52,088 nucleotides of DNA. It comes from Methanolinea sp. Its GTDB lineage: Archaea; Halobacteriota; Methanomicrobia; Methanomicrobiales; Methanospirillaceae. A program made the translations under genes and the position numbers. The stretch is from assembly GCA_024518585.1 (NCBI GenBank), contig JANIHI010000014.1:1-52088 (forward strand). Reading direction: 5' to 3'. The stretch's first letter is position 1. Each line of letters opens with the position of its first letter. The notes beneath the pieces are model-generated. The model saw only the letters and a program-made list of their open reading frames with translations, did no database searches and had not been told where the DNA came from. Positions 20,504 through 50,695 of this stretch are shown here, piece after piece.

Positions 20504-22396
20504 TTAAGGGGAAGGAAACTGTTGCGAGATGCAGTGGATTGCACCAAAGCCCCTCACCATTTCCGAACAGTTAACACCTGCAATTGTCCGGCCGGGAAAG
20601 ACCCTGGCAAGGACCTTTCGTGCCTGCCTGTCCGCCGGGTCATTGAACTCCGGGAAGATGACGATGCCGTTTCCGATGTAGAAATTCGTGTAACTGGCCG
20701 GCAGAACATCGTCCATTTTTCCCGGCATGGGAAGGTCGACGACTTCAAGGGGCCTTCCATCAAAGCTCCGTGCAGCCTCGAGTATGCTGTGGTTCTCCCA
20801 AAGGACGCGGTAGTTTTCGCTCCCTCTGTCTTTCTCGACCGCACAGACAACGGTGTGGGGGTTGACGAACCGGGCCACGTCATCGACGTGACCGTCCGTG
20901 TCATCACCCGCTATCCCGCCTTTCAGCCAGACGATGCGGGCAACACCCAGGAAGTCCCGGAGTCTTGCCTCGATATCAGACCGGGAGAGGTCGGGGTTAC
21001 GGTTGGGGTGAAGGAGGCACTGTTCGGTCACGAGCAGGGTACCGTGACCGTCCGTATCGATCGATCCTCCTTCAAGGACCATGCCAGGGAAGAAAGAGGG
21101 AATTCCCAGGTAATTCGCGAGAAAATCCGGGATTTTGTCGTCCGCGGTGAGCTCGGGGTACTTTCCTCCCCAGGCATTGAATGTCCAGTTGACCATCGCG
21201 ATCCGGGGATCTTTCCGGTGGACCAGGAATATGGGGCCATAGTCGCGGAACCAGACATCGGCGTACCGGTACCGGACGAAGTGGACCTGCCAGGCGGCGA
21301 TCCCCACGCGCGAAAGCGTGTCCCTCACCCGCTTCTCCATCTCCTCATCCCTGACGAGGAGGTAGACCCTCTCTCTCCCCGAGAGTGCCCTGATGATCTT
21401 TCCGTACGCCTTCTCCACGCAGGAGAGATCGGGGAAAGTGTCGTTCTCATACGGCCACGAGAGCCAGACACCCTGGTGCGGTTCCCATTCGGCGGGCATC
21501 CGGAACCCCGCAGCAGCAGGCGTCGTTCCGGTGAACGGGGGACACGACCGTGTGATCAGGGAATACGTATCCGGGCGCCGGTTGGAGAGAAAACCCCATC
21601 CCTCCCGCACGTGGCGGTTCATGGAGAGGTCAACATCAGCGATCAGCACCTGGTCTTTGTCCCCGGCACGTGCGACCACGTTTCCAAACGCGTCACAGAC
21701 AAATGACCTGCCGAAAAAGGTGATATCGCCTTCCGTCCCGACCCTGTTGACAGCAGCGACATGGATGCCGTTTCCAATGGCGTGCCCCCTCTGGACAGTC
21801 TCCCATGCCCGGGCCCAGTCTCCCTCGAGGGGGTCTTCCATGCCCCGGATCGTGCCGAGGGCAGTGGGGTAAAAGATGATATCGGCGCCCATGAGGGTGA
21901 CGACCCGGGCCGCCTCGGCAAACCACTGGTCGTAGCAGATGAGAACGGCGACCCGGCCAAAGGGAGTCTCCTGGACGGCGTATCCCGAACCCGGCGAGAA
22001 GTATTCTTTCTCGTAGTAGAGCGGGTCCTCGGGAACGTGCACTTTGCGGTAAACTGTTCCGGGAGTGCCATCCGGCATGATGGTGATTGCAGAATTGTAA
22101 AATGTCCCCCCCTCTCCCGCCTCAAAGAGGGGGAGGATGATGACTGCTCCATGCTCGCGGGCAAGCGGGGAGAAAAGGGCAGTCACCTTTCCCGGGACCT
22201 TATCCGCGTAATTCTCAACCGGGAAACGGTGAAACTGGGGGAAGTATGGCGTTGCGAAGAGCTCCTGCAGGCACACGATCCGTGCCCCCTGGGCAAGGGC
22301 CGACCGCGCAAGCTCAAGGTTCCTCTCCAGGTTCCTGGCCGTGTCGGGACCTGCCGATGTCTGGATAAGCCCTATCCGAACGATGCCGGTTTCCAT
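20504..22396 (-). CDS. Fused N-carbamoylputrescine amidase - agmatine deiminase
   Basis: A 630-residue fusion of two enzymes that normally are separate. Residues 1-290 are a carbon-nitrogen hydrolase of the AguB type with the catalytic triad Glu45 (LQELFATPYF), Lys117 (YRKVHVPED) and Cys153 (ICYDQWF). Residues 300-630 are an AguA agmatine deiminase with WFRDYGPIFL, LEGGSIDTDG, GDDTDGHVDD and the catalytic Cys622 in IHCISQQ. Together they turn agmatine into N-carbamoylputrescine and then putrescine, ammonia and carbon dioxide. Each half has full length and all catalytic residues. The gene may be co-transcribed with the HDAC-like gene, 59 nt upstream. Confidence 0.93.
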   Translation of the reverse strand: METGIVRIGLIQTSAGPDTARNLERNLELARSALAQGARIVCLQELFATPYFPQFHRFPVENYADKVPGKVTALFSPLAREHGAVIILPLFEAGEGGTFYNSAITIMPDGTPGTVYRKVHVPEDPLYYEKEYFSPGSGYAVQETPFGRVAVLICYDQWFAEAARVVTLMGADIIFYPTALGTIRGMEDPLEGDWARAWETVQRGHAIGNGIHVAAVNRVGTEGDITFFGRSFVCDAFGNVVARAGDKDQVLIADVDLSMNRHVREGWGFLSNRRPDTYSLITRSCPPFTGTTPAAAGFRMPAEWEPHQGVWLSWPYENDTFPDLSCVEKAYGKIIRALSGRERVYLLVRDEEMEKRVRDTLSRVGIAAWQVHFVRYRYADVWFRDYGPIFLVHRKDPRIAMVNWTFNAWGGKYPELTADDKIPDFLANYLGIPSFFPGMVLEGGSIDTDGHGTLLVTEQCLLHPNRNPDLSRSDIEARLRDFLGVARIVWLKGGIAGDDTDGHVDDVARFVNPHTVVCAVEKDRGSENYRVLWENHSILEAARSFDGRPLEVVDLPMPGKMDDVLPASYTNFYIGNGIVIFPEFNDPADRQARKVLARVFPGRTIAGVNCSEMVRGFGAIHCISQQFPSP

Positions 22397-31779: not shown

Positions 31780-32139
31780 ATGGCCATCGAAGAGATCGCG
31801 CTGCTGAAAGAGGCAGAGAAAAGAGCTCTTGACACCATCGCACAGGCAGAGAGGGAGGCAGGGGAAATCCTTTCCCGTGCCGAAGAGGAAGCCAATCGCC
31901 TGGTGGCACAGGCCGTGGCTGAAGCGGGAGCGATCCGCGACAGGGAAAGGGAGCGGGAGGTTGCGAAGGCACGAGAAGAAGGGGAAGCGATCATCAGTTC
32001 CGCTCAAAGGGAGGCAGACAGGTTACGGGAGAGGGCACTGGAGCAGAAAGGCCAGGCTGTCCTGACCATCCTCAATATCGTTTCCGGAGGCAAGTATGTT
32101 TTACCCCGCCAGGATGCAGAAGGTCACGATCGGCCTTGA
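31780..32139 (+). CDS. ahaH: A-type ATP synthase subunit H, operon 1
   Basis: A 119-residue, nearly all-helical protein with long coiled coil (Ala/Glu/Arg heptads). In A-type ATPases H pairs with E to form the peripheral stalks that hold A3B3 against the membrane part. It is the first gene of operon 1 and overlaps the I gene by 44 nt, an unusually long overlap; its last 15 residues are therefore read from I-gene DNA in another frame. The real H domain probably ends before that. Confidence 0.82.
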   Translation: MAIEEIALLKEAEKRALDTIAQAEREAGEILSRAEEEANRLVAQAVAEAGAIRDREREREVAKAREEGEAIISSAQREADRLRERALEQKGQAVLTILNIVSGGKYVLPRQDAEGHDRP

Positions 32140-34072
32140 TAACACTGCCCGCGACAGGGGCATCGAGGCACTCCACGAGGAAGGAGTCCTCCAGGTCGTG
32201 CCACTCCGGGAAACTCCTCATCCCTTCCAGGAGATACTGCAGCCAGGGGAGCGCGACCCCCTCGGGGATCGCTGCGCAGAACTTCGGGTCAGGATTGACC
32301 GTATCCTCGAAATTTTCCAGGCGAACTCCCCCGGCACGGGCAATGCATTAAAAGACCTCTTTGCCCCGGTCCCGACCACGCCCGTGACCCTCCCCCCGTA
32401 TTCCCTTCCCCGCCTCTTTGACGAGATTGAGGAGGCCCTCCGGTCTGGGGAAGAATCACTCTATGTCGCGTCCGAGATCCGGAAGACAGAAGACAGGATG
32501 ACAACCCTGGAAAAGGTCGCAACTGACGTTTCCCTGCTTGGCCTTCTCCCCTTTGACCTCTCTCTACTGGAGGATTCCCGCTTCCTCTCGGTCAACGCAG
32601 CCCTCCTCACAAGTGAAAAATACACAGAGCTCGAAAAACGCCTCCGGGAGACGTGCGGGGAAGATCTCTTCCTTTGTTCCTGCCGGAGAGGGGAGGATAC
32701 TGTTGTCGTCATCGCATCGCATGCAAGCCATGGCGACGCCATAAAAGCGGTCCTGCGCTCCCTTGGAGCATACGAGATCAGGGCTCCCGGCTACACGGGC
32801 CTGCCAAAAGATGTCCTCCGGGAGATCGAGAGGGAGACCGGAGACCTCGCGTCGCGGAAGGAGACACTCCGGCGTGAACTTGCCCGTCTCCGGGACGAGC
32901 ACGAGCAGAAGCTCCTTGCACTCCGGGAAGAACTGATGATACGGAGGGAGGAGATAGATTTACTCCCCCGCTGCGGGAGCACCCGCACCGTGACTGTTGT
33001 CATGGGATATGCCCCCTTCCACTCCGTGGAAGGGCTCCGCGAGAGAGTCACCCGCGCCACGGAGGACCTCTATTTCATCCGGACCGATGCACCCGACCCG
33101 GAAGACGAGTCTGTTCCCGTTGATTACCATAACCCCCCCTGGCTTGCGCCCTTCGAGTTCCTCACATCGATGTTTGCGCGACCGCGGTACAACGAGATCG
33201 ACCCGACGCCGTTTATCGCCCCTATTTTCCTGGTATTTTTCGGCCTGATGCTCGGGGATGCAGGGTACGGGATTTTAATTGCCCTGGTTGGTTTCCTCCT
33301 CTACCGGGGGGCAGGGAGGGTGAGCAGGACCATGCATGACTTAAGCTTCATCCTGACCCTCTGCGGGATCTCTGCCATTGTCTTTGGGGCGATCCAGGGC
33401 GGGTGGTTTGGAGACCTCCCCCAGAGATTCCTTGGCATCAGCCCGCCATTCGTCCTCATCGAGCCATTGCGGGACCCGATAGCCTTCTTCCAGATCTCGC
33501 TTCTCCTCGGCATACTCCATATCAACCTGGGGCTGGCTCTCGCCTTCTTCCAGAACTACAGGAAGAAACGTTACCGGGCATGTATCTTTGAGCAGGGAGT
33601 CTGGTATATCATCCAGACATCGGCCGGTATCCTGCTGACCGAGTTCTTTGGGTGGGCCCCCGTCCCCCGCCTGCTCCACTTCCTCGCCCTTGCCGGGGCC
33701 GCCATCGGCATAGGGCTGATCTTCTACTCCCACGGCCCCATGGGATTCTTCAGCCTCACCGGTTTTCTCGGCGACTGGCTATCCTACGTTCGTATCCTTG
33801 CCCTGGCCCTTGCAACGGGCGGGATTGCAATGACAGTGAACATCCTGGCCCAGATTATCGGGAGCGCCGGAGCACTCTTCTTCCTGCCCGCCCTCGCCGT
33901 CCTCCTGGGGGGGCAGGCCTTCAACCTGGTCATCCAGACCCTTGGAGGAGTGATCCACGCGATAAGACTGCAATACATCGAATTTTTCGGAAAGTTTTAC
34001 CAGGGAGGGGGACGCACGTTTACTCCCTTTACAGTCGAGAGGGTATATTCCCGGAGAGGTGACGCGAGATGA
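32096..34072 (+). CDS. ahaI: A-type ATP synthase subunit I (a), operon 1
   Basis: A 658-residue protein: a soluble N-terminal half with coiled coil (about 230-290), then a membrane half with about eight helices. LSYVRILALALATGG carries the conserved Arg that meets the rotor carboxylates during ion movement. It starts with ATG preceded by GGAGG at a good distance. The stop overlaps the K start by ATGA. It is the stator ion channel, and its channel residues must match the unusual six-hairpin K that follows. Confidence 0.93.
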   Translation: MFYPARMQKVTIGLDNTARDRGIEALHEEGVLQVVPLRETPHPFQEILQPGERDPLGDRCAELRVRIDRILEIFQANSPGTGNALKDLFAPVPTTPVTLPPYSLPRLFDEIEEALRSGEESLYVASEIRKTEDRMTTLEKVATDVSLLGLLPFDLSLLEDSRFLSVNAALLTSEKYTELEKRLRETCGEDLFLCSCRRGEDTVVVIASHASHGDAIKAVLRSLGAYEIRAPGYTGLPKDVLREIERETGDLASRKETLRRELARLRDEHEQKLLALREELMIRREEIDLLPRCGSTRTVTVVMGYAPFHSVEGLRERVTRATEDLYFIRTDAPDPEDESVPVDYHNPPWLAPFEFLTSMFARPRYNEIDPTPFIAPIFLVFFGLMLGDAGYGILIALVGFLLYRGAGRVSRTMHDLSFILTLCGISAIVFGAIQGGWFGDLPQRFLGISPPFVLIEPLRDPIAFFQISLLLGILHINLGLALAFFQNYRKKRYRACIFEQGVWYIIQTSAGILLTEFFGWAPVPRLLHFLALAGAAIGIGLIFYSHGPMGFFSLTGFLGDWLSYVRILALALATGGIAMTVNILAQIIGSAGALFFLPALAVLLGGQAFNLVIQTLGGVIHAIRLQYIEFFGKFYQGGGRTFTPFTVERVYSRRGDAR

Positions 34073-35514
34073 CGATAGGACTGGGCACCGCGCTCCTTGC
34101 CATCGGTGCCGGGATAGCGGCAGGGTTCTCTGCTGTCGGGGCAGGGATAGGGGTCGGGATAACGGGGGCAGCATCTGCCGGGGTCACGGCCGAACGCCCC
34201 GAGAAGTTTGGCGTCGCCCTCATTTATTCAGCTATCCCACAGACCCAGGCAATTTACGGGCTGCTCGTGGCAATCCTCATCCTCCTCTCGGGGGGATTTC
34301 TCGGGGGCCTCGCGGGGGATGTGCCCCTCCCGATTGGCCTTTCAGCCGTCGGGGCGGGCCTGGCCGTCGGGCTTGCAGGGCTCTCCTCGATCGGCCAGGG
34401 CATCGCGGCCTCCTCTGCCGTGGCAATGACGAGTGAACGCCCCGAGATGTTCGGCAAGGGGGTCGTGTTCTCAGTGATCTGCGAGACGCAGGCCATCTAC
34501 GGGCTCCTCGTTGCCGTGCTCATCCTGGTTTTCTCAGGCCTTCTCTCCGGGAACTACATTGCAACAATTGCGAGCGGCCTTGCGGGGATCGGGTGTGGTC
34601 TCTCCATCGGGCTTGCCGGAGTCTCAGCCATAGGCCAGGGTATTGCCGCCTCTGCCGGGGTGGCTGCAACGGGCCAGCACCCGGACCTGTTTGGGAAGGG
34701 TGTGGTCTTTGCCGCCATCTGCGAGACCCAGGCGATCTACGGGCTCCTCGTTGCCATCCTCATCATGTCGTTTACCGGCATGTTCTCCGGCAACCTGGTC
34801 ACAACGCTTGCATCCGGCGTGGTTGCGATCGGGTGCGGGCTTGCGACCGGTTTTGCAGGGTTCTCTGCGATAGGCCAGGGAATCGCTGCAGCGTCGGGTA
34901 TCGGGGTGACCGCAGAAAAACCGGGACTCTTTGGCAAGGGTGTAGTCTTTGCCGCCATCTGCGAGACCCAGGCCATTTACGGGCTCCTCGTTGCTGTCTT
35001 GCTGATGTCGTTTACAGGCCTCATCTCGGGAGATACCTCACTTACCCTTGCCGTCGGGTTTGCCGCGATTGGTGGTGGCCTTGCCGTCGGCCTCGCCGGA
35101 CTCTCGGCCATCGGGCAGGGTATCGCGGCCTCGGCAGGTATTGCCGCAACAAGCGAGAAGGAAGAGATGTTTGGAAAGGGTGTCGTGTTCTCGGCTGTAT
35201 GCGAGACGCAGGCGATCTACGGGCTCCTTGTCGCCATCCTCCTGATGGCATTCACCGGGATGATCACGCAGAACTTTGTGACAACCGTTGCCGTCGGGAT
35301 AGCAGCGATCGGAGCAGGGATTGCCGTCGGGCTCGGAGGTTTCTCTGCGATCGGGCAGGGGATCACATGTGCATCCGGGATTGCGGCAACGGCCCGCCGA
35401 CCGGATGCGATGGGGAGGAGCCTCGTCTTTGCCGCGATGTCCGAGACCTTTGCCATCTTTGGCCTGCTGGTCGCCATCCTCATCCTCTTTGGCCTGGGTA
35501 TTTTCCATGTCTGA
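34069..35514 (+). CDS. ahaK: A-type ATP synthase rotor subunit K, six fused hairpins, operon 1
   Basis: A 481-residue proteolipid of 12 membrane helices, six hairpins in one chain with an 80-residue period. Hairpins two to six each carry SxIGQG with a helix-1 Gln (110, 190, 270, 350, 430) and CETQAIYG or SETFAIFG with the ion-binding Glu (139, 219, 299, 379, 459), the Gln/Glu/Thr/Tyr set of sodium-binding rotors; hairpin six has Phe for Tyr. Hairpin one reads PQTQAIYG with Gln58 for Glu and Ala25 for Gln, so it cannot bind an ion. DNA of hairpins three and four is very similar, pointing to recent duplication. Usual archaeal K is one to two hairpins. Confidence 0.95.
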   Translation: MTIGLGTALLAIGAGIAAGFSAVGAGIGVGITGAASAGVTAERPEKFGVALIYSAIPQTQAIYGLLVAILILLSGGFLGGLAGDVPLPIGLSAVGAGLAVGLAGLSSIGQGIAASSAVAMTSERPEMFGKGVVFSVICETQAIYGLLVAVLILVFSGLLSGNYIATIASGLAGIGCGLSIGLAGVSAIGQGIAASAGVAATGQHPDLFGKGVVFAAICETQAIYGLLVAILIMSFTGMFSGNLVTTLASGVVAIGCGLATGFAGFSAIGQGIAAASGIGVTAEKPGLFGKGVVFAAICETQAIYGLLVAVLLMSFTGLISGDTSLTLAVGFAAIGGGLAVGLAGLSAIGQGIAASAGIAATSEKEEMFGKGVVFSAVCETQAIYGLLVAILLMAFTGMITQNFVTTVAVGIAAIGAGIAVGLGGFSAIGQGITCASGIAATARRPDAMGRSLVFAAMSETFAIFGLLVAILILFGLGIFHV

Positions 35515-35541
35515 CCATCAGTCACCGGGGTGGAAAGCAGC

Positions 35542-36159
35542 ATGAGCGTCGAGAGGATCGTTGACAGGATCACGCACGATGCCGAGAGTGAGGCCGAAAG
35601 GATCGTGGGCAGGGCTCGGGAAGAGGCGGACCGCCTGCGTGCACTGGCAGCCGAGGAGGGGAAAAAGAAGGGGACCCAGATCCTTGGTGCCGGACGCGAA
35701 GAGACGACCCGGCTGTGTGCCCATATCCTTTCCCAGTCCCGGTTGAACGCCCGCAAAATTCTGCGGGAGGCAAGGGAAGAGGCGATCCGGGATGTCTTGG
35801 ACGAGGCCAGGAGACAGCTCGAAAAAATCCGGGATAGTCCCCGGTACCCCGAAATCTTTGAGGAGCTTGCGACCGAGGCCCTCAACCTCCTCGGGCGCGA
35901 TAGCGCAGAACTGGTCATCGACAGCCGCGACCAGGCCCTTGCAGAATCCTTCGTGTCGGGCCGGGGAAAGAAAATACCCCGGTGTACAATTTCCCGGGAA
36001 AGGACGGTCTCGGCTGGTGGTGCAACCGTTTCGTCCCCCGACGGGATGGTATGGGTAAAAAACACGGTTGAGGCCCGCATGGAGCGGTTGGAGAGGGAGA
36101 TAACGGGACAGGTGTCACGCATCCTCTTTGGAGACGGAGGGGTGTCCAATGGCAGTTGA
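35542..36159 (+). CDS. ahaE: A-type ATP synthase subunit E, operon 1
   Basis: A 205-residue peripheral-stalk subunit from ATG 35542 (GGTGG ribosome site upstream; an in-frame GTG at 35530 is possible). A charged coiled-coil N-terminal half (ESEAERIVGRAREEADRL) is followed by a globular C-terminal domain that binds the top of subunit B. It overlaps the C gene by 11 nt. Pairs with H. Confidence 0.88.
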   Translation: MSVERIVDRITHDAESEAERIVGRAREEADRLRALAAEEGKKKGTQILGAGREETTRLCAHILSQSRLNARKILREAREEAIRDVLDEARRQLEKIRDSPRYPEIFEELATEALNLLGRDSAELVIDSRDQALAESFVSGRGKKIPRCTISRERTVSAGGATVSSPDGMVWVKNTVEARMERLEREITGQVSRILFGDGGVSNGS

Positions 36160-37348
36160 CGAGATCTTTTCCCTCCTCTCGAGCCTTGCAGCGGGGATTG
36201 GGATTGACCCGGGGATTCTCGCAGTCGTAATCCTGGCCTTTCTGCTTATCCTCATCCTCGTGGTCGTGACGTTTATCGGGTACTTTCGAACGCTCTTACT
36301 TATCGCCCAGTTTGCATTCCCGGTTGCACGGGTCAAGGCGATTGGAAACCCGTTCGTCCGGCACGAGACTGTGTCCCGCCTCCAGGACCTCCACTCACCC
36401 TACGAGGCCACCACCGTTGTCCAGGAGGCGGGGGCGGGCATCGAGATTCCCCTCGACGTCCCGCCAGAGAGACTTGACATGATCCTGGACGAGTGGTACA
36501 CGAGGGAATTCCTTGCCCTCCTCGAGACCGTTCCCGACGGGATAGCCCCGTTTTTCCACGCGTTCCAGGGGGTCCTCGAGGTCGAGCAGCTGGTTCGCGT
36601 GGTCCGGGCAGTCCATGCCCGGCAGGGCGGGAGCAGCCGGGTCTTTCCCGTGATCCCCATCGGCACCCTGACTCCCGGACGGATCAGGGAACTGGAGGGG
36701 CAAAAGACACTCCGGGAGATCGCTGCTCACCTGAAGGACACGCCGTACGGCGAGGTCATGTCAGCGGCACTCACCGAATACGACCAGACGAAACTCCTCC
36801 TTTTTGTTGAAAATGCCCTCTGGAAGCATGCCCTCCAGCAGTTGCACCTCTCGCGCCAGCACGTTGACCCCTCGCTCCTCCCCTCCGTGGCAGGGTTCCT
36901 CGGTCTCTCCATCGATGTTACCAATATCCTTACACTCCTGCGTGCAAAGGCAGCCGGGATACCTTCCGAAATCGTCAGCGGCTGGTTCATCCCGGGCGGG
37001 GCCGTCTACGAGGAATGGCGCCTGGGACAGATCTACGAGGCGAGGGGACCCCGCGATATCATCGCGCAGCTCTCGGGGACTGAGTACTACACTGTCCTCT
37101 CTCCGGCTCTTCCTCCCGGGGAAGATGTCGACATATCACGTGCCGAACTGGCACTCGACAGGCTCCTCCTTGCCAGGGTCACAACTATCTCCCAGGTCCA
37201 CCATCTCCAGGGAGGACCACTGATCAGGTTCGCCATCGCGAGGAAGTACGAGAAGAGGAACCTGCGTGTCATATTCCACTCCCTCCTCCGCGGAATTCCC
37301 ATGCCAGAAGCAGGGCAATGGCTGGTCGTGGAAGGTGATGTGCCATGA
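36149..37348 (+). CDS. ahaC: A-type ATP synthase subunit C with N-terminal membrane anchor, operon 1
   Basis: A 399-residue subunit C (V-type d homologue), the funnel-shaped central part between rotor ring and stalk. Start ATG 36149 has GGAGGGG 8 nt upstream. Unlike the operon 2 copy (349 residues, soluble), this one begins with about 50 extra residues including a strong membrane helix at about 22-46 (ILAVVILAFLLILILVVVTF). The rest follows the normal repeated helical domains. Anchoring of C could hold the central stalk on the ring more firmly. Stop overlaps the F start by 4 nt. Confidence 0.9.
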   Translation: MAVDEIFSLLSSLAAGIGIDPGILAVVILAFLLILILVVVTFIGYFRTLLLIAQFAFPVARVKAIGNPFVRHETVSRLQDLHSPYEATTVVQEAGAGIEIPLDVPPERLDMILDEWYTREFLALLETVPDGIAPFFHAFQGVLEVEQLVRVVRAVHARQGGSSRVFPVIPIGTLTPGRIRELEGQKTLREIAAHLKDTPYGEVMSAALTEYDQTKLLLFVENALWKHALQQLHLSRQHVDPSLLPSVAGFLGLSIDVTNILTLLRAKAAGIPSEIVSGWFIPGGAVYEEWRLGQIYEARGPRDIIAQLSGTEYYTVLSPALPPGEDVDISRAELALDRLLLARVTTISQVHHLQGGPLIRFAIARKYEKRNLRVIFHSLLRGIPMPEAGQWLVVEGDVP

Positions 37349-37644
37349 GAGCTGCCGTGGTTGGCCCGGCGCGGATGGTCCGCGGGTTTGCCTTGGCAGG
37401 GATCAAGGACACCTGCATTGCGAACGATGCCGGTGAGGCAAGGGAGGCCGTTTTACGCTGGCTGCGTGATACCGGAATCGGCATCATCATCACCACACCC
37501 CCCATCAGGAAGGGACTCTCGGCGGAGATTGGGCTTGCAGGCGCGGGGAAAAACGCGTATCCTGTCATCATCTCCCTCCCGGGAGGCAAGGATGACGAAG
37601 AGGACGAGGTCGAGGACTACCTGAAGGTGACCGGGTTGGAGTGA
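37345..37644 (+). CDS. ahaF: A-type ATP synthase subunit F, operon 1
   Basis: A 99-residue protein of the CheY-like F subunit fold, including GIIITTPPI and a Pro/Gly loop late. F sits on the central stalk with D and helps couple it to the catalytic head. Overlaps C by ATGA and leads into atpA with 7 nt between. The C-terminal end is acidic (DDEEDEVEDYLK), which the operon 2 copy is not. Confidence 0.87.
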   Translation: MRAAVVGPARMVRGFALAGIKDTCIANDAGEAREAVLRWLRDTGIGIIITTPPIRKGLSAEIGLAGAGKNAYPVIISLPGGKDDEEDEVEDYLKVTGLE

Positions 37645-37651
37645 ATTGGTC

Positions 37652-39427
37652 ATGGAAAGGCAAGAGGGAAGGACGGGAAGGATCATCCGGGTCACCGGCC
37701 CGGTGGTCCAGGCCGACGGGATGTCGGGGGCACGGATGTTTGAGATCGTGCATGTCGGCGAGGAGTCCCTCATCGGCGAGATCATCGCCCTTGAAAGGGA
37801 TCTCGCGACAATCCAGGTGTACGAGGAGACAAGCGGGATAGTCCCGGGAGAACCGGTCCGGGGAACCGGAAGGTCGCTCTCCGTGGCACTCGGCCCTGGC
37901 CTCCTCGGCAAGATCTTTGACGGAATAGAACGGCCCCTCGCCGAGATGCACGAGCGTGCAGGTGACTTCATCCGCCGTGGCAGCAGCATCCCCGCGATTT
38001 CACCGGGTACACGGTGGGACTTTGTCCCCCGTGTGACGCCGGGGGACAGCGTGACGGGGGGAGATGTCATCGGGGTCGTCCAGGAGAGGCCCTCCGTCCC
38101 CCACCTGATCATGGTCCCCCCCGGTGTCCAGGGCACGGTTGTCTCGGTTGTCCCCGAAGGGCAGTACCAGGTCAGCGAACCGGTCGCCCACCTCCGCACC
38201 CGGGAGGGAGAACTCGACCTGTCCATGATCCAGTACTGGCCGGTCAGGGAAGGACGCCCCATCAGAGAGAAACGTGACCCGGTCGAACCGCTGATCACGG
38301 GGCAGAGGGTCATCGACCTCCTCTTTCCGATCGCCGTCGGTGGGACCGCGGCAATACCCGGGCCTTTCGGGTCGGGAAAGACTGTGGTCCAGCACCAGCT
38401 CGCGAAATGGGCGAATGCCGACATCATCATCTTCGTCGGGTGCGGTGAGAGGGGAAACGAGATGGCGGACGTGCTGACCGAGTTCCCGCGCCTGGAGGAC
38501 CCCCGGACAGGTCTCCCGCTGATCAACCGCATGGTCCTGATCGCAAACACGAGCAACATGCCGGTTGCTGCCCGTGAAGCGTCGGTGTACACGGGAATGA
38601 CCATTGCCGAATATTACCGGGACATGGGTTTCCGCGTCGCCCTCATGGCCGATTCAACATCGCGATGGGCAGAGGCCATGAGGGAGATCTCGGGGAGACT
38701 CGAGGAGATGCCGGGGGAAGAGGGGTATCCCGCGTACCTCGGTTCGCGCCTTGCCGATTTCTACGAGAGGGCGGGCAGGGTCCAGACCCTGGGGAGACCG
38801 GAGAGGGAGGGGTCCATCTCTGTCATCGGTGCGGTCTCGCCACCCGGGGGAGACTTCTCCGAACCGGTGACACAGAACACGCTCCGGATCGTGAAGGTCT
38901 TCTGGGCGCTGGACTCTGACCTTGCATACCGCCGCCACTTCCCTGCCATCAACTGGCTCTCGTCCTATTCCCTGTATTCCGGGGTCGTGAACGGGTGGTG
39001 GCACGAGAATGCAGGACCGCGGTGGGAGGAGATGAAATCAGAGATCATGGCCATTCTCCAGAAGGAGAACGAACTCGAAGAGATGGTCAAACTCGTTGGG
39101 CCAGAGGTCCTCCCCGAGGCGGACCGGCTCACCCTCTTAAAAGCCGAAGTCATCCGGGAGAGTATCCTCATGCAGTACGCGTTTCACCCCCACGACACCT
39201 ATACGTCTCCCCAAAAACTCTACCGGATGGCAGAAATGGTCTTTACATTATTTGCCCTCGCGCAGGAAGCCCTCTCGGCCGGAACCCTGACAGAGGAGAT
39301 CCGTGCCCTCCCGGTCAAGTCCCGCCTTGCCCGCTTGGGGGCTGTCCCGGAGAAGGACTTTGAGACTGTTTGCACGGAGATACGGGCCGATATGGAGAGA
39401 GAGTTCCAGGACTTGAGGAGGCGCTGA
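37652..39427 (+). CDS. ahaA: A-type ATP synthase catalytic subunit A, operon 1
   Basis: A 591-residue catalytic subunit from ATG 37652 (a TTG two codons earlier is in frame). P-loop GPFGSGKT at 237-244, the family's standard form. GERGNEM and the characteristic inserted non-homologous region (about 110-200) follow the A/V pattern. [11 protein letters not shown] near residue 400 is conserved. Three copies form the ATP-making sites with B. Compare the operon 2 copy: same length class, a different P-loop. Confidence 0.96.
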
Positions 39428-39428
39428 A

Positions 39429-40826
39429 ATGACCACGGGAGCACGGGAGTTCCGGTCCATCACGCACATCCATGGGCCGATCATGGTCGTTGACGGCGTC
39501 TCCGGGGTAGCCTTCGGCGAAGTGGTCGAGATTACGCTTCCTACCGGCGAAAAGAGGCTGGGGCAGGTGCTTGAATCCCGGACCTCCCGCGCCATTGTCC
39601 AGGTCTTCGGTTCGACGCGGGATCTGGATACCCTCGCGACCACTGCGCGGTTCACGGGAAAGACGATGCATATTGCCGTCACCGACGAGATGCTCGGGCG
39701 CGTCTTTGACGGGATAGGCCGTCCTCTGGACGGCGGAGCGCCGCCCCTCGGGGGAGAGGAACGTGACATCCACGGGTCTTCCATCAACCCCCATGCAAGG
39801 GAACACCCCCGCGACTCGATCCAGACCGGGATATCGGTCATCGACGGGATGAATACCCTTGTCCGGGGCCAGAAGCTCCCCCTGTTCAGCGGTGCAGGCC
39901 TGCCCCACAACCTCCTTGCCGCCCAGATCACGCGGCAGGCGATGGTCAGGGGACAGGAAGAACGGTTCGCCGTCGTCTTTGCTGCCATGGGCATCACGCA
40001 CGAGGAGGCTGCATTCTTTTTATCCGACTTTTCCCGGACCGGTGCACTGGAACGTGCGGTTGTCTTCCTGAACCTGGCCGACGACCCCGCGATCGAGCGC
40101 ATCATCACCCCCCGGCTCGCCCTCACCACGGCAGAATTCCTGGCATTTGACAGGGGGATGCACGTCCTCGTTATCCTGACCGACCTGACCAATTACTGCG
40201 AGGCACTGCGGGAGATATCGGCGGCACGCGAGGAGGTGCCGGGCAGGAGGGGATATCCCGGTTACATGTATACCGACCTTGCCAGCATATTTGAACGTGC
40301 CGGGCGCATAAAAGGCCGTACCGGGTCCATTACCCAGCTCCCCATCCTGACGATGCCGGATGACGACATCACCCACCCGGTCCCTGACCTTACCGGCTAC
40401 ATCACGGAGGGGCAGATCGTTCTCTCGCGGGACCTCCACCGGAAGGGTATCTACCCCCCCATCAACCCGCTCCCCTGCCTCTCGCGCCTCATGCAGGGCG
40501 GGATAGGGCCGTCCCGGACACGCGAGGACCATGCCCAGGTCAATAACCAGCTGTATGCCGCGTACGCCCAGGGGATCAAGTTAAAGAGCCTGGTCGCGGT
40601 GGTCGGAGAAGAGGGGCTATCAGACACCGACAGGGCGTACCTTACCTTTTCGGAACGGTTCGAACGGGAATTCGTCGCCCAGCAGCCCGACGAGAACCGT
40701 TCCTTTGAGGCGACCCTGGACAGGGCATGGGACCTCCTCGCCATCCTGCCGGAGGGAGAACTCAAGCGTATCGACGAGGGCCTCATCAGGAAGTACCACC
40801 CGGCCTCCAGGGGGAAGACCGCGTGA
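39429..40826 (+). CDS. ahaB: A-type ATP synthase regulatory subunit B, operon 1
   Basis: A 465-residue non-catalytic partner of [14 protein letters not shown] stands where a P-loop would be, so it binds nucleotide weakly or not at all, the family norm. Other marks: [23 protein letters not shown] and [20 protein letters not shown] (each at most 20 residues as shown). Its last codons overlap the GTG of atpD. Confidence 0.96.
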
Positions 40827-41461
40827 CCGCCCAGGGGAGGAGCGGGATCCGTCCCACGCGGATCGAGCTCCTCCGGTTGAGAAAACAGGAGACACTTGCC
40901 CAGAGAGGACACGACCTCCTCGAGGAGAAACTCGATGCCATGGTCGTTGCCTTCCTCGGATACAGGCAGGCATACCTCGAGCAGAAATACCGTGTGAGGG
41001 AGGCCTACCGCTCGGCACGTGCCGCCCTCGACCGTGCCGAGATGGTCGCGGGAACCGTGACCGTGGATGAAGTGGCACAGTCATCCCCTCCCCTGCCCGA
41101 GATCCCCCTCGGGACCCGTCTCGTGATGGGAGTCCGTGTCCCCTCCCTCCCTGCCGGGCCCCTCCCTGTCCACCAGCAGGGCTACGGTCTCCTTGGGACT
41201 TCCTCGACGATCGACACTGCGTCCCGGAAGTTCGAGGAACTCACACGTGAGATCATCGTGCTCGCGGAGCGGGAGGGGACGGCAAGAAGGCTCTCCCAGG
41301 AGATCCAACGGACCCGGAGGAGGGTGAACGCCCTGGAGAGGATCCTCATCCCACGCCTCCAGGCAACGCGGAAATACATCGAGATGCACCTGGAGGAGAG
41401 GGAGCGCGAGGACCAGTTCCGGCGCAAGCGTATCAAGCACATCAAGGCAGAAAATCCATGA
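40823..41461 (+). CDS. ahaD: A-type ATP synthase subunit D, operon 1
   Basis: A 212-residue coiled-coil central stalk subunit starting with GTG within the B gene end (GTGA). The N-terminal [12 protein letters not shown] and C-terminal [13 protein letters not shown] are the two long helices of the rotating shaft. Its stop forms ATGA with the following small gene. Confidence 0.93.
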
Positions 41462-41622
41462 ATGCACCCATCAGGGATCAATGGATGGAGAGATTTCTCC
41501 GTCGGCCGGAGACACGGTGCATGGTCTCCCGGATCTTTCTCATCCTCCAGCTTGTCATCTACCTCTCGCTCCTTCTCGGCACCATCCTGTTTTTCTTTCT
41601 CGTCATGACGCGGCCACGCTGA
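41458..41622 (+). CDS. Small membrane protein at the end of ATP synthase operon 1
   Basis: A 54-residue product whose ATG overlaps the atpD stop (ATGA), so it is translated with the operon. It begins with a basic N-terminal part (WMERFLRRPETR) and one membrane helix (IFLILQLVIYLSLLLGTIL and on), ending in TRPR. There is no counterpart after operon 2. It meets the end of the oppositely directed stress-protein gene with a 20-nt overlap. Possible roles: an extra rotor-ring or stator partner, or an assembly factor like the small i/UncI proteins of F-type operons (inference). Confidence 0.65.
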   Translation: MNAPIRDQWMERFLRRPETRCMVSRIFLILQLVIYLSLLLGTILFFFLVMTRPR

Positions 41623-42520
41623 TATCGCCCGGGACCTTATGGGTTTTCGTTCCCGTTTCACGCACGACAAGGACGGGCCTTGCAGCGATCTTTGCAACCT
41701 CCTGGGCAGTGCTCCCGGGGATGATCCCGCCGAGCCAGCCCCTCCCGTGGGAACTTAACGCAACGAGCGATACGTCCTCCTCGTCTGCGCAGAGGGCGAT
41801 TTCCCTTGACGGGCTGCCCACTTTTACGATGTACCGCGACCGGATCCTCCGGCCGGACAGGAAGAGTGTGTCTCTCTCCATCTCCCTGATGGCCTCTTTC
41901 TCCTGAATCGCGATCTCTTCCTCGTTCTCTCCGCTTTCGATGACGTGCAGGAGGATGACCTCCGAGAGTCCTTTGAGGGGAGCTATCGTGGCAAGGGCCT
42001 GCCGTGCCGGCGGTGAAAAATCGGTTGGGCAGAGGACGCGGGAAAGAATCCGGGGGCAGAACTTCTCAAAAGCCCTCCCCTTCAGGCCCTCGACTATCCT
42101 GTGCTTCATGATCAACACGTTGGAGGGACTGTACCGGAGGACGTAACTTGATACGCTCCCGAGGAGGATGTCCCGCAGGATGCCCTTCCCCCGTGCACCC
42201 ACGAGGATGAGGGACGGGGCTTCCTCGCGTGCAACCGCAATCACCATCTCCCCCACGGGCCCATGGGGAATTTCCTTGAGAACTGCCCGGGCACTGATTC
42301 CCTGGGCACGCAGGGTCTCGCATTCACTCTGCAGCTGCTTCCTCGCCTGCTCCTTGACCATCTCGATACCCCACCGGGCAAAGCCCGGCCGTGACGTGTC
42401 GACGACATGAAGGAGAATGACTTCTTTTACGTCGGGAAATCCCGCGATGCACTCGAGAGCCTTCTTGGCGTGCTCCGAAAAGTCGGTGGGAAAGAGTATC
42501 CGGGAAAACACCAGTGACAC
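41603..42520 (-). CDS. Two-domain universal stress protein
   Basis: A 305-residue fusion of two UspA domains. The first has the ATP-binding GARGKGILRDILLGS (GxxGx(9)GS type), the second SSHGRGWLGGIIPGS with the same spacing. Both look able to bind ATP. Tandem UspA proteins are common in methanogens and may respond to energy or redox stress. It sits alone between the two ATP synthase operons and ends by overlapping the small operon 1 protein by 20 nt. Confidence 0.93.
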   Translation of the reverse strand: MSLVFSRILFPTDFSEHAKKALECIAGFPDVKEVILLHVVDTSRPGFARWGIEMVKEQARKQLQSECETLRAQGISARAVLKEIPHGPVGEMVIAVAREEAPSLILVGARGKGILRDILLGSVSSYVLRYSPSNVLIMKHRIVEGLKGRAFEKFCPRILSRVLCPTDFSPPARQALATIAPLKGLSEVILLHVIESGENEEEIAIQEKEAIREMERDTLFLSGRRIRSRYIVKVGSPSREIALCADEEDVSLVALSSHGRGWLGGIIPGSTAQEVAKIAARPVLVVRETGTKTHKVPGDISVAAS

Positions 42521-42702: not shown

Positions 42703-42861
42703 ATGAATCCGATTGAGAACGAAGCAATAGAAAAACTGAAAAAAATCGCTGTGACGCGATGCATGGAGCGCATAGAGAGAGCCAAGGCTATGAAAAGGGA
42801 GGCAGTTCTGCCTGCTTCACCCGGGATTACCCGCCTCCTCAAATCACGCCATGGTCTCTAG
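42703..42861 (+). CDS. Small basic protein before ATP synthase operon 2
   Basis: A 52-residue, strongly helical, basic peptide (EAIEKLKKIAVTRCMERIERAKAMKRE). Its stop lies 13 nt before the AhaH ATG and it follows the operon promoter, so it is the first reading frame of the transcript. No family recognised. It could be an assembly factor or a small regulator. The ribosome site is weak (GGGATC), so translation is not certain. Confidence 0.5.
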   Translation: MNPIENEAIEKLKKIAVTRCMERIERAKAMKREAVLPASPGITRLLKSRHGL

Positions 42862-42874
42862 GGATGGGTTGACA

Positions 42875-43201
42875 ATGGAGCCGGAATCTTCACTCCTCGA
42901 GAGGGTCAGGGTCAAGGAGATTGAGCTCAAGGCCCAGATAGATGCTGCGTCCAGGAAGGCAGATGCGATGATCGAAGAGGCCAGGGCGCGGGCAGATGAG
43001 ATCATCAGGGAAGCAAGACAGAAGGGAGAGGCCGATGCTGCCCGGTATACCGGGGAACAGGAGAGGTTGCTTGCGGGAGAGGTCCAGGAGATGCAGAAGA
43101 GATCCCGCCATGAGAGGGAACAGCTGGCCTCGACTGCCGGCCAGCGGGTCGGGCAGGCCGTCAGCGAAGTCATCAACCTGGTTCTGGCAAAGGATGGCTG
43201 A
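42875..43201 (+). CDS. ahaH: A-type ATP synthase subunit H, operon 2
   Basis: A 108-residue coiled-coil stalk subunit from ATG 42875 with GGGATGGG before it (an ATG at 42851 is in frame but lacks a ribosome site). Ala/Glu/Arg-rich (ARARADEIIREARQKGEADA) throughout. Its stop overlaps the I start as TGATG. Confidence 0.86.
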   Translation: MEPESSLLERVRVKEIELKAQIDAASRKADAMIEEARARADEIIREARQKGEADAARYTGEQERLLAGEVQEMQKRSRHEREQLASTAGQRVGQAVSEVINLVLAKDG

Positions 43202-45117
43202 TGCTCCAGAAGATGGTCAATATCCTGGTAGTCGGGCCGAAGAAAGACTACCAGCAGATCGTCGATGTCCTCTACCAGGAGGGGACAGTTCACCTCCAGG
43301 ATGTCCCCGTATCCCTGGATGACCCTGTCTTTACGCCGATGGACACCGGCAAAACCGAGGAGGTATCGGCGGTCCTCCTCAAGCTCCACGGCATTGCACA
43401 GATCCTCCCGGGGAGACCGGGGGAAGGGGGGCCGGCAGAGGAACGCGCACGGGAACTTTCTGGCAAGCGGACTGAGGACCTCTTATCAGAGGCAAAGGAG
43501 ATTGTCCAGTTGCTTGAATCAAAGGTCCGCGACCTTGCAACGAGGAAGAGCGAGCTTGAGCTCTCCCGGACGACCCTTGACAAGTACGCACGGATCATGG
43601 AGAAGATCCAGCCCCTCGAGAGCAAGCTCCCCATCCTCGAAGGCTTTGAAGTCACAGTCCTGCTGATCCAGAAGGAGTACCGCGATGTCCTCGACCTCAT
43701 CCGCCCCCAGCTGAAGGCAATAACGCGGAACCAGTTTGAATTCATTGCCGCCGACCTGGACGAAAACACGACGGCCGCAATAACTGTCTTTAACAGGAAG
43801 TATTCCGAGGAAGTCCACTCATTCCTCTTTTCCCAGAACGTCAACGAGGTCCGCGTTCCCCAGGAATATGCAAACATGCAGCTCCGGGATGCACTTGCCC
43901 TCATCGAGGAGAAAAAGTCAGAAATCTCCCGGGAGATGGAGCAGATTGACAGGGAACTCCTTGCACTCTCGGAGAAGTGGCAGGGAGACCTCGCAATCTA
44001 TACCCGCCTCCTCGAGGACCGCCTGGAAGAACTCCGCTCCCTCAATAAGTTCGGCCAGTCGGCCCACACGATCCTGATCAAGGGATGGATCCCAAAAAAA
44101 TTCATCAAAAAAACCCGGGAGGCACTCAGGCGCGCCTTTGGGGACCGGGTTGTCCTGACCGAACTGCCGCTGTCGCCTGAAGATCTGGAGAATGCGCCCA
44201 CTTTTTACGACAACCCACGGATTGTCAAGCCTTTTGAATTTTTCATGCGCCTCGTGTCTCCCCCCCGGTACAGGGAGATCGACCCCAGTCCCCTCCTGGC
44301 GATCTTCTTCCCCATCTTCTTTGGGATCATCGTGGGGGACATCGGCTATGGCCTGTGTATCCTTGGTTTTGGCATTGTCATGAAGTGGAAGTTCCCAAGG
44401 ATCGACTGGATGCAACAGCTCATGAATATCATGATCATTTCATCGTTCCCCACAATCTTCTTCGGTTTTCTCTTCGGGGAATTCTTCGGGGACTTTGGAG
44501 AGAAGATCGGGCTAACCCACCCCGTCATGTTCCTCGGCGTCACCTGGAACAGGGTGGAGGCCATGATCCCCCTCCTCGTGCTTGCCATTGCTATCGGTGT
44601 CATCCACGTTTTTGTCGGGCTCTCCATTGGTATTTTGAACGCTTATGCCCGGCACCACAAGAAACACCTCTGTGAAAAGGCCGGGATGATGGGGGTCGTT
44701 GCCGGGATCATCCTCCTGCTCGCCTCCCTAACCGGGGTTCTCCCCTCGTTCATGATGATCGGTGCTGCCGTCATTCTCGTCGCCTTCCTCCCGCTGCTCG
44801 TGTACGGGGGAGGTACCATGGGTGTGATCGAGGTCATGAGTACCATCGGAAACATCCTCTCCTATGCAAGGATCATGGCAATCGGCATGGCATCTGTCAT
44901 CCTCGCCATGGTGGCCAACGAACTCGGGGGAGCTGTCGGTGCCCTCGTCGTTGGGATCGTCATCGCCGCACTCCTCCATGCCCTCAACATTATCCTCGCC
45001 ATGTTCAGTCCCTCCCTGCATTCCGTCCGTCTCCATATCGTGGAGTTCTATTCAAAGTTCTACGAGGGCGGGGGGACAGAGTACAGGCCGTTTGGACGGG
45101 AGAAAAAGACTGATTGA
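43201..45117 (+). CDS. ahaI: A-type ATP synthase subunit I (a), operon 2
   Basis: A 638-residue stator channel: soluble half with coiled coil, then about eight membrane helices from about 360. NILSYARIMAIGMAS holds the conserved channel Arg. It differs from the operon 1 copy along its length, including around this Arg, consistent with serving a different rotor. Followed by a 160-nt gap with its own promoter before K. Confidence 0.93.
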   Translation: MLQKMVNILVVGPKKDYQQIVDVLYQEGTVHLQDVPVSLDDPVFTPMDTGKTEEVSAVLLKLHGIAQILPGRPGEGGPAEERARELSGKRTEDLLSEAKEIVQLLESKVRDLATRKSELELSRTTLDKYARIMEKIQPLESKLPILEGFEVTVLLIQKEYRDVLDLIRPQLKAITRNQFEFIAADLDENTTAAITVFNRKYSEEVHSFLFSQNVNEVRVPQEYANMQLRDALALIEEKKSEISREMEQIDRELLALSEKWQGDLAIYTRLLEDRLEELRSLNKFGQSAHTILIKGWIPKKFIKKTREALRRAFGDRVVLTELPLSPEDLENAPTFYDNPRIVKPFEFFMRLVSPPRYREIDPSPLLAIFFPIFFGIIVGDIGYGLCILGFGIVMKWKFPRIDWMQQLMNIMIISSFPTIFFGFLFGEFFGDFGEKIGLTHPVMFLGVTWNRVEAMIPLLVLAIAIGVIHVFVGLSIGILNAYARHHKKHLCEKAGMMGVVAGIILLLASLTGVLPSFMMIGAAVILVAFLPLLVYGGGTMGVIEVMSTIGNILSYARIMAIGMASVILAMVANELGGAVGALVVGIVIAALLHALNIILAMFSPSLHSVRLHIVEFYSKFYEGGGTEYRPFGREKKTD

Positions 45118-45228
45118 CCGGGACCACTCACCTCCCGGAGATAACCCCTCCCGGGATCCGGCCACGCCGTATGCTGCCACCGTTTGGTGATTCGAGCCTA
45201 ATAGAAATTTTTAATGTTGTTGAGGTAT

Positions 45229-45249
45229 CGATTTTATATATTATAAAGA
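45229..45249 (+). promoter_or_regulatory. Internal promoter before atpK, operon 2
   Basis: CGATTTTATATATTATAAAG gives two overlapping TATA boxes about 30-45 nt before the K start codon at 45278, in the only sizeable gap inside either ATP synthase operon. It would let K be made in excess over H and I, as its stoichiometry requires. Confidence 0.65.
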
Positions 45250-45277
45250 TTATGTTACAGGTGTAGGAGATGCATAC

Positions 45278-45496
45278 ATGGCTGGATGGGAAATTCCACT
45301 GGGTGCAGCAATCGCGTTTGCTGCGGGAGCAATCGGGACGGCCTGGGCACAGTCCAAGATCGGTTCTGCGGGTGCAGGGACGATTGCCGAGAGGCCCGAG
45401 ACGTCAGGTTCGATCATCGTGCTGGAGGCAATCCCGGAAACCCTTGTCATTCTTGGTTTCGTGGTCGCATCCATGATCATCATCATGGTGGAGTGA
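45278..45496 (+). CDS. ahaK: A-type ATP synthase rotor subunit K, single hairpin, operon 2
   Basis: A 72-residue proteolipid of two helices. Helix 1 contains AIGTAWAQSKIG and the loop AERPE, helix 2 carries the ion-binding Glu54 in PETLVILG. The Tyr and GQG Gln of the sodium set in operon 1 are absent; this is the form typical of other methanogens and haloarchaea. TAGGAG lies 9 nt before the ATG. Followed by a strong hairpin. Confidence 0.93.
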   Translation: MAGWEIPLGAAIAFAAGAIGTAWAQSKIGSAGAGTIAERPETSGSIIVLEAIPETLVILGFVVASMIIIMVE

Positions 45497-45509
45497 GAGG
45501 CGTCTGGTG

Positions 45510-45568
45510 CCCCGAACCCTTTAAGCAGGGACCCTGGAGAGTTCCTGCGCTCTTCAAGGGTTTTGGGG
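45510..45568 (+). promoter_or_regulatory. RNA hairpin between atpK and atpE, operon 2
   Basis: CCCCGAACCCTT (45510-45521) pairs with AAGGGTTTTGGGG (45556-45568), 11-12 bp with one bulge, enclosing a second small stem GCAGG/CCTGC. No T-run follows, so it is more likely a cleavage or messenger-stability element than a full terminator. It would leave K messenger more abundant than E to D. Confidence 0.65.
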
Positions 45569-45601
45569 CGGGAAGAACCCAAGGCAAAGGGGAGATTGGG
45601 A

Positions 45602-46186
45602 ATGACATACGAGGACCTCTTGCAGTCCATGGAGGCCGGGGCACGCGAGAAGATTACGGAGATAGACGAGAATGCCCGTCGACAGAGCGATGATATTATC
45701 CGTGATGCAGAAGAGAGGGCAGGCGCCATCCAGCGCGAGATCATGGCGCAGGCCATGGCAGCAGTAGCAGATAAGCGGAACCGTTCACTATACAAGGTAC
45801 GACAGGACGAAAAAGCTGCAGATATCCAGCAAAAGGAGGAGATCGTCAACCAGGTCTTCCAGGAAGCTGCCGCAAGGCTGAAGGAATTCCGCACGTCGGG
45901 AGAGTATCCTCTGCTCTTTTCCCGGTTGCTCCGGGAAGCGCTCCATGACATGGGCCAGGAGAAGGCCATCGTCCACGTGGATCCGCGGGACGAGCCTCTC
46001 TGCCAGGAAGCACTGAGGGGTCTTTCAGGGAACCACCAGGTGGTCCCCGACCTGACGACGTGGGGGGGAGTGGTCGTCTCTTCCCCGGACGAAAAAGTCA
46101 GGATTCACAATACCCTTGAGTCGAGGCTCGAGAGGGCGAGGCTCCTCTCCAAGAAAGACGTCTGTCACATTCTCTTTGGAGACTGA
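45602..46186 (+). CDS. ahaE: A-type ATP synthase subunit E, operon 2
   Basis: A 194-residue stalk subunit from ATG 45602 (GGGGAGATTGGG before it). N-terminal charged coiled coil, then a globular end with GVVVSSPDEKVRIHNTLESR, the typical E subunit close. Separated from C by 2 nt. Confidence 0.9.
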   Translation: MTYEDLLQSMEAGAREKITEIDENARRQSDDIIRDAEERAGAIQREIMAQAMAAVADKRNRSLYKVRQDEKAADIQQKEEIVNQVFQEAAARLKEFRTSGEYPLLFSRLLREALHDMGQEKAIVHVDPRDEPLCQEALRGLSGNHQVVPDLTTWGGVVVSSPDEKVRIHNTLESRLERARLLSKKDVCHILFGD

Positions 46187-46188
46187 CA

Positions 46189-47238: not shown

Positions 47239-47551
47239 GTTCATGGTCGTGACCGATCCCGATACAGCAGCCGGTTTCCGGCTGGCAGGGGCCGAGGTCA
47301 TCGAGGCTGCCGATGCCCAGGAGGCAAAGAAGGTCATCCCGCCCCTCCTTCACAGGGATGACACCGGGATCATCGCGGTAAACGAGGATTACCTGCAGGT
47401 GCTCGACGAGAAGCTCATGAACAGGATCGAGCGGACCTATCGGCCTATCATCATCCCCATTCCCCGAAGGGCCCGGACGGGGGGTGGACCGGGGTACCTG
47501 GAGAACCTCCTGCGCAGAGCAGTCGGGTATAACATCGTTGTGAGGCGGTAA
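47231..47551 (+). CDS. ahaF: A-type ATP synthase subunit F, operon 2
   Basis: A 106-residue F subunit from the ATG at 47231, inside the C gene end. [17 protein letters not shown] at the front and [14 protein letters not shown] near the end match the CheY-like F fold. Leads directly into A. Confidence 0.92.
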
Positions 47552-47552
47552 C

Positions 47553-50689: not shown

Positions 50690-50695
50690 GTCTGC

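Follow-up and report, generated by a model that had tools for sequence, protein, structure and literature searches.

A six-hairpin rotor subunit with five sodium-type sites and one dead seam in an archaeal A-type ATPase

Introduction

For subunit K, the rotor subunit of the A-type ATPase, Ruppert and colleagues reportedly found in 1999 that only two of the three hairpins in Methanocaldococcus jannaschii bear the carboxylate. K chains of three and of 13 hairpins, as well as ligand loss after hairpin duplication, are already described (PMC2359735). In NtpK, the corresponding subunit of Enterococcus hirae, hairpin 2 contributes Glu139 and Gln110 to binding of the ion and hairpin 1 contributes Thr64, Gln65 and the carbonyl of Leu61, while Tyr68 braces the Glu (PMC2359735). 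Rotors with more hairpins than live sites are known in principle from M. jannaschii, E. hirae NtpK and the hybrid ring of Acetobacterium woodii. How much energy an ATP costs is set by the number of ions moved per turn, which is normally learnt only from the structure of each ring; the ring of the Thermus A/V-type enzyme consists of 12 hairpins (24 helices; PMC6199243). Here, we describe a subunit K encoded on contig JANIHI010000014.1 of Methanolinea sp. (assembly GCA_024518585.1), the window analyzed being the whole stretch of 52,088 nucleotides. This subunit has six hairpins, with five predicted Na+ sites inside the chain and a sixth, dead one at the chain end, and two such chains probably close a 12-hairpin ring.

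Hairpins, Ion Sites and Dead Seam of Subunit K

The features of the K gene are as follows.

34069-35514, plus strand: subunit K, six hairpins, 481 amino acids (481 open codons; open reading frame, NF004913, Pfam and AlphaFold2)
34081-34290, plus strand: hairpin 1, residues 5-74, without Glu and without Gln110 equivalent, retaining Thr59, Gln60 and Tyr63
34240-34242, plus strand: codon of Gln58, the dead-site position
34327-34533, plus strand: hairpin 2, residues 87-155, with Gln110 and Glu139
34567-34773, plus strand: hairpin 3, residues 167-235, with Gln190 and Glu219
34807-35013, plus strand: hairpin 4, residues 247-315, with Gln270 and Glu299
35047-35253, plus strand: hairpin 5, residues 327-395, with Gln350 and Glu379
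35287-35493, plus strand: hairpin 6, residues 407-475, with Gln430 and Glu459, and Phe461/Phe464 in place of Gln/Tyr

PF00137 (ATP-synt_C) matches this reading frame six separate times (63-70 bits each at a cut-off of 24, 332 bits summed), in agreement with the six-hairpin rotor subunit proposed in an earlier note made from the sequence alone. Against the NCBIfam model NF004913, representing the multi-hairpin K of the M. jannaschii type, the protein scores 516 bits (cut-off 211), although with six hairpins and 481 residues it is clearly longer than this 220-residue, three-hairpin model. AlphaFold2 folds it into six consecutive hairpins (predicted local distance difference test, pLDDT, 91.4; predicted template modeling score, pTM, 0.90), and the best PDB match of this fold is chain A of 2BL2, the E. 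hirae rotor subunit, with a root-mean-square deviation of 1.7 Å over 150 columns. Apart from c''-type subunits with an extra helix, the chains returned by sequence and fold searches of the PDB had at most two such hairpins. The 80-residue period previously noticed holds throughout, save for a step of 81 residues from hairpin 1 to hairpin 2; hairpin 1 is four residues longer, as it is in NtpK. An assembly or repeat-collapse artefact is ruled out by the divergence of the inner hairpins (DNA identity of 63-71%, no exact repeat longer than 29 bp) and by chains of equal length in many genomes, some of them single-contig.

Alignment of K to 2BL2 pairs the NtpK ligand residues directly. Each site takes its Glu and the Gln110-type residue from hairpin n, and Thr, the Gln65-type and the Tyr68-type residue from hairpin n-1. 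Hairpins 2-5 show the motif Gln..Glu-Thr-Gln..Tyr, while the motif is Val(or Ala)..Gln-Thr-Gln..Tyr in hairpin 1 and Gln..Glu-Thr-Phe..Phe in hairpin 6. The Glu residues at 139, 219, 299, 379 and 459 and the Gln residues at 110, 190, 270, 350 and 430 are exactly those named in the earlier note, and equivalents of Glu139, Gln110, Thr64, Gln65 and Tyr68, distributed across two hairpins, are found at five of the six positions, consistent with the five complete sodium-type sites and one dead site it had counted. Its replacement of Glu by Gln58 in hairpin 1 is likewise borne out, with Gln at this position in all 81 tabulated chains. As the equivalent of Gln110 in hairpin 1 it had given Ala25; due to the four extra residues, this is Ala25 when aligning from the N-terminal side and Val29 from the loop side, so that the absence of Gln stands and the identity of the residue depends on the alignment. 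When 23 hexahairpin chains of various lineages are aligned, all five Glu residues are invariant, as are the Gln residues except for Gln270, which is nearly so.

What had to be revised is the assignment of the dead site. The earlier note had counted sites per hairpin and attributed the defect to hairpin 1 alone, overlooking Phe461 and Phe464 of hairpin 6, where hairpins 1-5 have Gln and Tyr. As sites are common to neighboring hairpins, the defects of hairpins 1 and 6 fall on one and the same site, and the dead site is the junction at which hairpin 6 meets hairpin 1 of the following chain. Each side has lost residues, the former having Phe461 and Phe464 and the latter Gln58 and no Gln110 equivalent. 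In distinct complete chains of at least three hairpins, which are related and not independent sequences, Glu of hairpin n and Gln/Tyr of hairpin n-1 are both present at 322 sites, both absent at 77 and split at 4; besides the 77 seam positions, 322 of 326 sites thus retain Glu and its partners. A site formed within a single hairpin was rejected, as same-hairpin pairing breaks in all 77 seam cases. The split pattern is explained by four deep-sea Thermoplasmata chains in which hairpin 3 lost Gln65/Tyr68 and hairpin 4 lost Gln110, a joint loss matching the prediction for a site shared across hairpins. Taken together, K is confirmed, as far as sequence goes, as a Na+-type rotor subunit whose chain contains five complete sites internally and a dead one at its end. 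Being invariant in the tabulated chains, the Gln at the dead position appears to be under selection, and we infer that its side chain stays neutral throughout while moving past subunit a.

In the chains L029, L032, L130 and L131 (hairpins 3 and 4), one inner site lacks Gln65, Tyr68 and Gln110 and retains Glu, which suggests a single H+-type site within a Na+ ring.

Chain Lengths in Related Genomes

Relatives of K were gathered from genome contigs and by six-frame searches in Methanomicrobiales, Thermoplasmatota, Thermococci, Hydrothermarchaeota and other genomes. The distinct sequences of complete chains comprise one (n = 14), two (n = 54), three (n = 12), four (n = 18), six (n = 45) or 12 hairpins (n = 3); hence, from three hairpins upward, only lengths of 3, 4, 6 and 12 occur among complete chains in the genomes reached. 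Of 232 Methanomicrobiales genomes, 35 encode full-length six-hairpin K, and several of these 35 consist of a single contig; K of Methanospirillum has three hairpins. One order, represented by 16 genomes, contains the four-hairpin, the six-hairpin and both 12-hairpin types.

The 12-hairpin chains differ in their internal pattern. In L017 and L020, hairpin i has its nearest counterpart in hairpin i+6 at most positions, and hairpins 6 and 7 are separated by the full seam signature, which marks these chains as fusions of two six-hairpin genes with the dead junction kept inside. Such a 6+6 fusion with its frozen inner seam amounts to a natural cross-linking experiment on subunit stoichiometry. The i+6 pattern is absent from L028, and this chain therefore reached 12 through amplification of inner hairpins. 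L020, L024 and K of other halophilic Thermoplasmata bear a PKD-like domain ahead of the first hairpin, which would lie outside the cell on the rotor.

Since inner hairpins cluster by lineage, six hairpins were probably reached at least three times, or the repeats were homogenized by gene conversion. In a weakly supported tree of the end (seam) hairpins, about 15 changes in chain length are counted, ending on 2, 3, 4, 6 or 12 hairpins save for one artefact reading frame. The latter, the five-hairpin chain L035, was discarded because an indel at the end of a contig truncates it; L041 continues it, with at least eight hairpins. Related assemblies (L064, L069, L157 and L158) break within the same repeats as the metagenome-assembled genome G153 from which L035 and L041 originate.

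Ring Size and Ion-to-ATP Ratio

The earlier note had envisaged a 12-hairpin ring of two chains with 10 sites. We consider this likely, with two opposite dead seams and 3.3 ions per ATP, because 12 is the least common multiple of the lengths 3, 4, 6 and 12, because natural 6+6 fusions exist and a second route also stopped at 12, and because six hairpins were probably reached repeatedly; the Thermus enzyme provides a precedent for a ring of this size. The chain lengths and fusions agree with that proposal, whereas the ring size itself is deduced from them. By a rough estimate, the probability of seven independent events, each free to end on 3 to 12 hairpins, all arriving at 3, 4, 6 or 12 is 0.4^7, i.e., about 0.002. 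If the ring size is common to these chains, an 18-hairpin ring can be dismissed, 18 being a multiple of neither 4 nor 12, and so can a 20-hairpin ring, of which 3, 6 and 12 are not divisors.

In the proposed mechanism, each Glu would load Na+ at one half-channel of subunit a, circle with the ring and release the ion at the other half-channel, while at the seam the neutral Gln58 would cross subunit a without an ion. One turn, corresponding to 3 ATP, would then move 10 Na+, equivalent to 3.3 per ATP. This value is physically reasonable, because the hybrid ring of A. woodii has it as well (PMC7793690). With live sites per ring equaling 12 minus the number of seams, four three-hairpin chains would provide 8 sites (2.7 ions per ATP), three four-hairpin chains 9 (3.0), two six-hairpin chains or one 6+6 fusion 10 (3.3) and one 12-hairpin chain 11 (3.7). 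It is evenly balanced, in our judgment, whether the ring is indeed fixed at 12 hairpins and the gear set by the use of 4, 3, 2 or 1 chains, one site being lost per boundary. If so, the ion-to-ATP ratio could be read from chain length in the sequence. Chain length and seam count appear to set the ions per turn, with relatives giving 8-, 9-, 10- and 11-site versions of seemingly one ring, and the question why organisms pick a given ion-to-ATP ratio becomes directly testable.

One of 392 genomes harbors an A-type operon with two K genes (L199; G674:C1, about 81677-82600). The first encodes 244 residues in three hairpins, each with Gln for Glu and without Gln110, and the second a single hairpin of 77 residues whose site is complete. 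As a 3+1 repeat closing a 12-hairpin ring, this pair would provide three sites and one ion per ATP.

Several observations weigh against the 12-hairpin ring with 10 Na+ sites. AlphaFold2 modeling of a 12-hairpin chain resulted in a pLDDT of 41 and a pTM of 0.46 (four sequences), and the model was not used. Ring size varies in the wider family, reaching 20 hairpins in E. hirae (PMC6199243), and K of Methanopyrus kandleri, with 13 hairpins all complete (PMC2359735), is a known exception. G153 apparently encodes a chain of at least eight hairpins over two overlapping contigs, and eight is not a divisor of 12. The lineage grouping of inner hairpins could reflect gene conversion instead of independent amplification. 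A 24-hairpin ring fits the same divisors. Finally, the size of the ring and the ion-to-ATP ratio are deduced from sequence, and the use of Na+ from the ligands of K.

A 24-hairpin ring, closed by four six-hairpin chains, would have 20 live Na+ sites and move 6.7 ions per ATP. It would accommodate chains of 3, 4, 6 and 12 and even the eight-hairpin chain of G153, which 12 does not, and V-type rings do come as large as the one of E. hirae (PMC6199243). On the other hand, it would exceed even that 20-hairpin ring, two routes stopped at exactly 12, the length by which one chain would close a 12-hairpin ring, and one site per hairpin is closer to Thermus-type rings than to NtpK; a ring of 24 is thus unlikely. 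Alternatively, chain lengths might merely reflect descent and chance duplication, with ring sizes being lineage-specific (13, 18 or others) and a 10-site ring not implied. The 13 hairpins of M. kandleri (PMC2359735), the weakly supported seam tree and the variable sizes of F-type c-rings would suit this explanation, which nevertheless appears rather unlikely given that the 15 length changes in the seam tree end only on 2, 3, 4, 6 and 12, save for the truncated reading frame, and that inner hairpins cluster by lineage.

Two further alternatives concern the sites. The dead seam might be a structural closure device stemming from an NtpK-like two-hairpin ancestor and have no role in gearing, an idea compatible with a 12-hairpin ring and differing on the reason for the seam. 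In favor of this, two-hairpin K of other archaea have similar end signatures (PQTQ in the first, SETF or AETM in the last hairpin) and the fused 6+6 chain retains the seam though no chain end is located there. Yet, whatever its origin, a site lacking Glu should move no ion, and closure needs no dead seam, considering that both hairpins are live in Methanothermobacter thermautotrophicus (PMC2359735), leaving a closure device without gearing role plausible albeit somewhat doubtful. Use of the sites by protons in the cell could be argued from characterized c-rings being intrinsically H+-selective and using Na+ only at large excess (PMC3692424). This is very unlikely for K, however, with all Na+ ligands conserved at five sites in the different lineages and with cytochrome-free methanogens making a Na+ gradient, nearly all of their A1Ao enzymes bearing the Na+ motif (PMC5754280).

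Operon Context and Accessory Role of the ATPase

The K gene is part of a complete A1Ao operon (operon 1), in the order weak H-like, I, K, E, C, F, A, B and D, the stop of I and the start of K overlapping by four bases. It is followed by a second set of ATPase genes.

31780-32139, plus strand: operon 1, H-like peripheral stalk subunit, weak match (TIGR02926 AhaH, E = 3e-5, below cut-off)
32096-34072, plus strand: operon 1, subunit I (a), stator half-channel subunit (NF004428, 486 bits; PF01496)
35530-36159, plus strand: operon 1, subunit E (profile match)
36152-37348, plus strand: operon 1, subunit C, rotor cap, with N-terminal hydrophobic helix (PF01992)
37345-37644, plus strand: operon 1, subunit F (profile match)
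37646-39427, plus strand: operon 1, catalytic subunit A (profile match)
39429-40826, plus strand: operon 1, subunit B (profile match)
40727-41461, plus strand: operon 1, subunit D, homology from about 40841 (profile match)
42851-51346, plus strand: operon 2, second A1Ao gene set (H, I, K, E, C, F, A, B, D), with A and B 57-65% identical to those of operon 1
45278-45496, plus strand: K of operon 2, single hairpin with PETLVILG (no Gln65/Tyr68), H+-type by motif

Between both operons, a tandem universal stress protein with two Usp domains is encoded on the opposite strand (41603-42520, minus strand). Elsewhere in the window, a 630-residue protein (20504-22396, minus strand) looks by eye like a carbon-nitrogen hydrolase fused to an agmatine-deiminase-like domain. 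The host is a Methanolinea-like methanogen, sharing 94% protein identity with Methanolinea sp. Yes46-04.

A third A-type ATPase operon of the genome is located on contig C16, and its K, like that of operon 2, is a single hairpin without the Gln65/Tyr68 pair. Owing to its single-hairpin K with an H+-type site, the ring of operon 2 should differ from that of operon 1. In line with this gene inventory, a set of two H+ and one Na+ ATPases is reported for Methanomicrobiales (ProAD, PMC11738941), and three A1Ao clusters for Methanospirillum hungatei JF1 (PMC4704411). Multi-hairpin K is found in 57 of 232 Methanomicrobiales genomes and is absent from some nearly complete Methanolinea genomes, whereas all 46 sampled Methanomicrobiales genomes possess a PF00137 rotor gene; in this sample, the listed single-hairpin reading frames are present both with and without a long K. 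Because of this patchy distribution beside a rotor gene present in every sampled genome, the operon 1 enzyme is regarded as an accessory second or third ATPase. A Na+-coupled enzyme, working toward either ATP synthesis or Na+ export, would fit organisms making a Na+ gradient at Mtr (PMC5754280).

The N-terminal hydrophobic helix of operon 1 subunit C has a 19-residue mean hydropathy of 3.57; subunit C of operon 2 is without it. At partly redundant loci, where several exceptions are wrong-frame reading frames, the helix accompanies six-hairpin K in 56 of 57, four-hairpin K in 22 of 25, 12-hairpin K in 5 of 5 and single-hairpin K in 1 of 9 cases, this lone one being a truncated K fragment. A true exception is the three-hairpin locus L062 of Hydrothermarchaeota. 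As subunit C sits on the rotor ring, the helix might plausibly extend into the ring lumen.

Comparison With Known Rotors

In the portions of the open-licence literature available to us, no description was found of six-, four- or twelve-hairpin chains, a shared-site seam or a chain-length rule. A genomic parallel is offered by M. hungatei JF1 (PMC4704411) and ProAD (PMC11738941), where an adjacent pair of operons plus a separate third one, with one Na+-type and two H+-type enzymes, resembles the situation found here; the accessible text of both sources describes no six-hairpin chains, seam or chain-length rule.

With the K subunit of M. jannaschii, K of the present locus shares the profile family (NF004913) and the tandem hairpins; in contrast to the three hairpins of the former, it has six with five live sites, and this lineage amplified inner hairpins. 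The M. kandleri K is one long Na+-type chain deduced to form the rotor (Lolkema and Boekema, 2003, cited in PMC2359735). Its 13 complete hairpins without any dead seam, a number not dividing 12, set it apart from the chain described here, which with six hairpins and one dead seam is not a monomeric rotor of the Methanopyrus type, where one chain closes the ring and all hairpins are complete. The ligand set and the cross-hairpin site are the same as in E. hirae NtpK (2BL2), which, unlike this K, has two hairpins and one site per chain in a 20-hairpin ring, so that the V-type arrangement of NtpK does not apply either. The hybrid c-ring of A. woodii (4BEM), finally, has 10 Na+ sites, moves 3.3 Na+ per ATP (PMC7793690) and contains more hairpins than live sites, just as proposed here, but is an F-type ring built from one double-hairpin and several single-hairpin subunits, unlike K.

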